Assembly: GCA_016188625.1 (NCBI GenBank)
Contig: JACPHL010000302.1
Span: 1 to 11,287, forward strand
Direction: 5' to 3'
DNA from: Candidatus Rokuibacteriota bacterium
Lineage (GTDB): Bacteria; Methylomirabilota; Methylomirabilia; Rokubacteriales; JACPHL01
DNA: 11,287 bases
Shown: positions 6,255 to 6,809 of the stretch, piece after piece
How positions within the stretch are numbered: the first letter of the stretch is position 1
How the letters are laid out: every line of letters starts with the position of its first letter
Notes under the pieces: generated by a model
What the model was told of the DNA's origin: nothing
The model's database searches: none
What the model saw: only the letters and a program-made list of their open reading frames with translations
Made by a program: the position numbers and the translations under genes

Positions 6255-6262
6255 AAAGGAGG
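6255..6262 (+). promoter_or_regulatory. Strong Shine-Dalgarno of the peroxiredoxin gene
   Basis: AAAGGAGG, a near-perfect anti-16S match, lies 7 bases before the ATG at 6270. It decides the start in favour of this ATG over in-frame ATGs at 6105, 6111 and 6246, and shows the gene is built for efficient translation, which argues against a dead pseudogene. Confidence 0.8.
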
Positions 6263-6269
6263 CCGTCTC

Positions 6270-6809
6270 ATGACACGCGGCGTTCGTCGAGGTCCCCGTA
6301 CGCTCCTCCTCGCCGTCTTCCTCGCAACCGGCCTTGCCGGGAACGCGGCGGCGGTCGAGGTCGGCCAGAAGGCCCCGGACTTCATCCTGCCTGGGACGCC
6401 TGAGAAGCCGGTGCGCCTCAGCCAGTACGCCGGGAAGACGGTGGTGGTCCTCCACTTCTACCTCGGCGACTTCCTCCCGGCCTGAGAGGCCGACCTGGCG
6501 TCCCGTCGGGACGGCTACCGAGCGTTCCAGGAGGCCGGCGCCGAGATCCTCGGCGTCAGCTCCGATGCGCCGGCCAAGCACCGGCAGTTCCAGGCCAAGC
6601 TCGGGCTTCCCTTCCCGCTCCTGAGCGACGAGAAGCGGCAAGTGATCCGGCGCTACGGGGTGCTCGACACGACCTGGAACCTGGCCAAGCGCTCCTACTT
6701 CATCATCGACCGGCAGGGGGTCGTGCGCTTCAAGAAGGTCTTCGACGACCCGACCCAGATGCTGACCAACGAAGAGCTCCTGGCCGAGGTCCGGCGGCTG
6801 GCGCGGTGA
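6270..6809 (+). CDS. Exported AhpC/TSA-family peroxiredoxin, predicted selenoprotein (in-frame TGA = Sec72)
   Basis: Predicted peroxide-reducing thioredoxin-fold enzyme, 179 residues including selenocysteine. Residues 1-28 form a signal peptide (arginine-rich start, hydrophobic LLLAVFLATGLAG, cleavage after NAAA), so the protein should act outside the cytoplasm. VGQKAPDF (31-38) is the standard peroxiredoxin opening. HFYLGDFLPA leads to a TGA (6483-6485) aligning with the peroxidatic Cys of the FYPxDFTPxCxxE motif. The same frame then continues without interruption: EADLASRRDGY, EILGVSSDAPAKHRQF, LPFPLLSDE and RSYFIIDRQGVV, with the expected conserved Arg, to a TGA at 6807. A SECIS-like hairpin follows the recoded TGA. 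There is no cysteine anywhere, so it would be a 1-Sec type. The usual Pro (-7) and Thr (-3) before the active site are both Leu. The alternative is a Cys-to-TGA mutation or base error. It is the only plus-strand gene, divergent from the PaaA-like gene. Confidence 0.85.
6486..6515 (+). promoter_or_regulatory. Candidate bacterial SECIS element directly downstream of the in-frame TGA
   Basis: Within the coding sequence after the TGA, CGTCCC (6499-6504) pairs perfectly with GGGACG (6508-6513) around the loop GTC (6505-6507). One more G-C pair (6497-6515) can form beyond a mismatch. The apical loop starts with G and lies 19 bases after the TGA, within the spacing described for bacterial SECIS elements. 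The loop GUC resembles the GGUCU loop of E. coli fdhF. SelB would bind it to deliver Sec-tRNA. GC-rich sequence folds easily, so the hairpin alone is not proof. Confidence 0.6.

Follow-up and report, generated by a model that had tools for sequence, protein, structure and literature searches.

A probable exported selenoprotein of the peroxiredoxin fold, with leucine at two signature positions, in a Rokubacteria genome

The window analysed here, a stretch of 11,287 nucleotides, is contig 130 of the 84%-complete genome (2.6 Mb in 344 contigs) of a Candidatus Rokuibacteriota bacterium from soil or groundwater. On the forward strand it carries a gene that encodes 179 amino acids when its single internal TGA, codon 72, is read as a residue; 107 amino acids lie beyond this codon, and the frame closes with a final stop TGA at 6807-6809. 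Mechanical ORF calling terminated the frame at 6485, the truncation that a first-pass annotation of this DNA had expected of standard gene calling. The gene stands alone between a PaaA-like gene and a DUF1326 gene, and as each of these runs on the opposite strand an operon with either neighbor is ruled out. The features of the locus are as follows.

6256..6262, + strand: Shine-Dalgarno sequence AAGGAGG, 7 nt ahead of the ATG at 6270 (read from the sequence).
6270..6809, + strand: Sec-peroxiredoxin gene (translation; Pfam AhpC-TSA; ortholog L026, 82% identical).
6270..6353, + strand: probable signal peptide, residues 1-28, MTRGVRRGPRTLLLAVFLATGLAGNAAA (assigned by eye; pLDDT pattern).
6462..6464, + strand: Leu65, where the signature has Pro (-7) (alignment).
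6474..6476, + strand: Leu69, where the signature has Thr (-3) (alignment).
6483..6485, + strand: in-frame TGA, residue 72, at the peroxidatic position, read as selenocysteine (homologue alignment).
6499-6504 pairing with 6508-6513, + strand: candidate SECIS hairpin, with the loop GUC at 6505-6507 (compensatory changes in Sec homologues).
6690..6692, + strand: Arg141 in KRSYFIID, nearly invariant in our alignment A2 and probably the catalytic Arg.

The read-through protein matches Pfam AhpC-TSA (PF00578) over residues 31-154 (E=1.3e-36; 125.7 bits against a curated cut-off of 26), and a single AhpC-TSA domain therefore spans the TGA. This agrees with the first-pass annotation, which had described peroxiredoxin coding on either side of one TGA together with a Shine-Dalgarno sequence, a signal peptide and a hairpin after the TGA; all of these are present, the signal peptide as a by-eye reading of the translation. 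The read-through protein contains no cysteine. An AlphaFold2 model built from 30 sequences, with Sec entered as Cys, has a pLDDT of 90.5, low before about residue 30 and at 92-98 in the blocks that follow. Peroxiredoxins rank first among the structures retrieved by Foldseek, the nearest including Sulfolobus Bcp4 and Mycobacterium tuberculosis AhpE.

The active site reads FYLGDFLPAU in the window protein and FYLGDFLRAU in L026. The original alignment by eye with the motif FYPxDFTPxCxxE holds for the peroxidatic column, on which the TGA falls, but not for its Pro and Thr, both of which are Leu. With Leu at -7 and -3, the protein lacks the peroxiredoxin signature PxxxTxxC/U, and shows neither of the motifs by which Sec-peroxiredoxins have been described, TxxU (PMC1088965) and PxxxTxxU (PMC13188914). 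Detecting a selenoprotein in this way is a known phenomenon; an active site with neither Pro nor Thr is a departure from the textbook family, and we found no description of a Sec-peroxiredoxin with such a site in the open-access literature.

To place these substitutions in the family, residues were counted in a larger set of sequences, excluding rows with a doubtful register at the Sec column. Pro occupies -7 in one of 63 Sec sequences compared with 35 of 43 Cys sequences, and Thr or Ser occupies -3 in 39 of 63 compared with 41 of 43; Cys is absent altogether from 58 of the 63 Sec forms. The sole Sec form with Pro at -7 is a TGA-peroxiredoxin with the full FYPLDFTPGU, found on an Alkalihalobacillus MAG contig (L132) that may be contamination. 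A wider scan, of the genome contigs of 84,980 species, added Sec forms from Rokubacteria, Methylomirabilota, deltaproteobacterial MAGs, SAR324 and one betaproteobacterial MAG, and Cys forms from cyanobacteria and others. The distribution of Pro and Thr across Sec and Cys forms is mainly a property of clades. Striking as the raw counts are, the tree offers only four well-supported, independent Sec/Cys contrasts, with which a sign test cannot reach significance, and we therefore claim no causal link between Sec and the loss of Pro and Thr.

Judged from these residues, the case for a peroxidase is weaker without Pro and Thr, and substrate handling may differ from that of classical peroxiredoxins because both positions are Leu. 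The protein could then be a selenoprotein without being a peroxidase, carrying Sec on a peroxiredoxin fold for thiol-disulfide or persulfide chemistry or for redox sensing; the two Leu residues, shared by the window protein and its ortholog, and the lack of both published motifs are what this explanation has in its favor. However, the protein retains its peroxidatic position and catalytic Arg along with the entire fold, and 39 of the 63 related Sec forms do keep Thr or Ser at -3, so that we consider it rather unlikely. As a tentative possibility, the window protein and its relatives may constitute a subfamily of Sec-peroxiredoxins that are exported and for the most part lack Cys. Sec would allow their active site to dispense with the Pro and Thr that are otherwise essential in peroxiredoxins, giving an undescribed site for peroxide or another substrate.

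Whether the TGA is read through at all was judged from related genes. A search of 95 genomes of the phylum (E<=1e-30) yielded 30 places in 27 genomes, and among these best phylum homologues 29 have one TGA and one has Cys, all at the same column, as expected from the earlier placement of the TGA on the column of the peroxidatic Cys. The nearest homologue, L026, comes from a different family and has kept the same TGA at 82% identity. Over the 107 codons after the TGA, the two genes differ by 24 synonymous and 13 nonsynonymous codon differences (dN 0.088 and dS 2.28 by YN00; dN 0.099 and dS 0.479 by NG86), dN/dS being low by both methods with dS near saturation and method-dependent. On this codon comparison the region downstream of the TGA is under purifying selection. 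Because L026 shares the TGA and the changes after it are biased toward synonymous ones, chance or decay is very unlikely; nor was there any other disruption of the frame, of the unrelated kind that had been named as the mark of a pseudogene. In the tree, the window protein and L026 form a pair (support 100/99), weakly placed (98/52) next to a well-supported clade that comprises 28 Sec and two Cys sequences, 30 in all.

The candidate SECIS hairpin starts about 13 nt past the UGA and its loop 19 nt past it. With the T of the TGA numbered 0, its paired positions sum to 46. Across 23 distinct Sec sequences, 78% of the cells in this register are paired, against 9-55% for other registers; in 20 aligned sequences, 89% of the hairpin cells pair. 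Covariation within the hairpin scores 0.268. Shuffles give 0.140, none of the 500 reaching the observed value, and sliding the partner strand gives no more than 0.070. Pair 18/28 is compensatory, occurring as G-C, U-A, A-U and G-U with amino acid changes on both sides. The slid controls and this pair weigh more than the shuffles, because shuffles do not keep the relatedness of the sequences. Folded alone, 40 nt of the window give z=-1.9 and a different register as the minimum-energy fold; the comparative register is preferred because it holds across the family. Taken by itself, the hairpin in the window sequence is only plausible, and the case for it comes from comparison, through which the SECIS-like hairpin of the first-pass annotation has gained a register that is conserved and covarying in related genes. 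A search of Rfam gave zero matches within the window, which says little about bacterial SECIS elements. In another Sec clade, the UGA is followed by a hairpin that is longer and of a different form. In L031 and L073, Cys homologues nested in the Sec clade, the hairpin is broken, with pairs lost as expected if Cys replaced Sec; these two genes, with Cys and a decayed hairpin, are natural controls for the SECIS element.

These data bear directly on the alternative that translation truly stops at the TGA, or that the codon arose in a Cys gene through faulty sequencing or assembly, leaving a pseudogene or a short N-terminal product. Mechanical ORF calling does end at 6485 as this explanation would have it, but the same TGA in 29 of 30 independent homologues, the purifying selection on the codons downstream and the covariation of the hairpin all speak against it, and we regard it as very improbable.

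The host genome possesses the machinery for Sec. Its contig 273 carries selA (600 bits), selB (381 bits) and tRNA-Sec (75.7 bits) together, the anticodon of the tRNA being TCA (ARAGORN), and selD (396 bits), also present, contains a TGA of its own, in the motif GAGUACK; every component that the first-pass annotation had proposed to look for is therefore in the host assembly. Across the phylum, selA was found in 84 of the 95 genomes. Three of the 27 homologue-bearing genomes (G088, G078 and G004) yielded neither a selA match nor a tRNA-Sec above the cut-off. One of them, G088, with a listed completeness of 100%, contains two TGA-peroxiredoxins; there the absence is probably due to a missing contig, and because the Sec genes lie together a single missing contig could explain each of the three cases.

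Elsewhere in the window TGA is an ordinary stop, since none of the 12 other genes contains an internal TGA, seven terminate with this codon and Trp is encoded by TGG. An altered genetic code, with TGA as Trp or another residue everywhere, would likewise leave the frame open across one TGA, but it is refuted by this use of TGA, by the presence of tRNA-Sec(TCA), selA, selB and selD, and by Cys, not Trp, as the alternative residue at the column, and its probability is negligible.

The host genome is selenoprotein-rich. Further thioredoxin-fold genes whose single in-frame TGA coincides with the catalytic position or lies close to it (e.g. FTPGU, TUEMC and KWUPYC) were seen on host contigs C39, C36, C131, C256, C285 and C264 (L002, L004, L005 and L007). 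The peroxiredoxin search alone gave eight more matches in the host genome with one TGA each, among which one TGA is probably a genuine stop. This fits the picture of a selenoprotein-rich Methylomirabilota MAG, for which 63 predicted selenoproteins are given in a passage of a 2026 review (PMC13188914) that cites Deng et al. 2026.

The reading of TGA72 as Sec is strongly supported; the machinery, the homologue column, selection and the hairpin all favor the probable selenoprotein of the first-pass annotation. It is highly likely that the gene encodes an exported selenoprotein of the peroxiredoxin fold, in which UGA72 is decoded as Sec by the host's own machinery and the hairpin, and which reduces peroxide by a 1-Sec mechanism with a partner. 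In the scheme that we infer, SelA, SelB, SelD and tRNA-Sec of the host would insert Sec at UGA72, directed by the hairpin past the UGA, and after the presumed export of the protein the Sec selenolate would attack peroxide. As the protein has no Cys, it has no resolving Cys, and its oxidised Sec would be reduced by a partner protein. Given the Foldseek kinship to the 1-Cys enzyme AhpE, the most likely reading is such a 1-Sec mechanism, in which a partner does the reducing.

Candidate reductants are suggested by the gene content near related loci. At 17 of these (L035, L037-L040, L042, L048, L052, L075, L079, L082, L084, L086, L089, L092, L093 and L106; some are the same gene twice) a TlpA-like frame with NFWA[ST]WCxxC follows 227-353 nt further downstream, in the same orientation. 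Frames resembling ABC-transporter substrate-binding proteins also recur near Sec-peroxiredoxin loci with a TlpA-like frame. At five loci of the other Sec clade (L047, L120, L125, L130 and L133) the downstream TlpA-like frame is a Sec version, FFW[TA]TWUPDC, its TGA at the first Cys position of the redox motif, and this arrangement suggests a two-selenoprotein operon. The gene after the L026 ortholog (L135) is a CMD/AhpD-type frame with an in-frame TGA in SPYUMDI; a search of the host genome for an ortholog of it gave only a weak match (27% identity, E=3.6e-5).

Because ordinary gene calling cuts at the TGA, widespread exported selenoenzymes of Methylomirabilota and Rokubacteria are easily overlooked or wrongly annotated as fragments. 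Should Sec indeed make up for the absent Pro and Thr, this family would provide a natural experiment on the role of those residues in peroxiredoxins.

Sec-peroxiredoxins are a known class, as the first-pass annotation stated and the literature confirms (PMC1088965, PMC13188914). Like the window protein, the published ones have an AhpC/TSA domain (PF00578) with Sec at the peroxidatic position; the window protein differs from them in its Leu at -7 and -3, its lack of Cys and its probable signal peptide. The best NCBIfam match is PrxU (NF040737), a thioredoxin-dependent Sec peroxiredoxin, over residues 26-163, yet at 76.8 bits it lies far under the cut-off of 270, and by this score the window protein is not a member of the PrxU equivalog family. 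The Prx-like thiol:disulfide oxidoreductase selenoproteins (PMC13188914) are PF00578 selenoproteins as well, but are characterized by UxxC, whereas the window protein has UEAD; a UxxC-type paralogue, L007 with KWUPYC, exists in the host genome. M. tuberculosis AhpE (1-Cys; PDB 1xxu and 4x0x) has the same fold as the window protein (rmsd 1.4 over about 150 columns) at 29-30% identity, and is a Cys enzyme with no selenium. Like AhpE, the window protein would be expected to have a single catalytic chalcogen.
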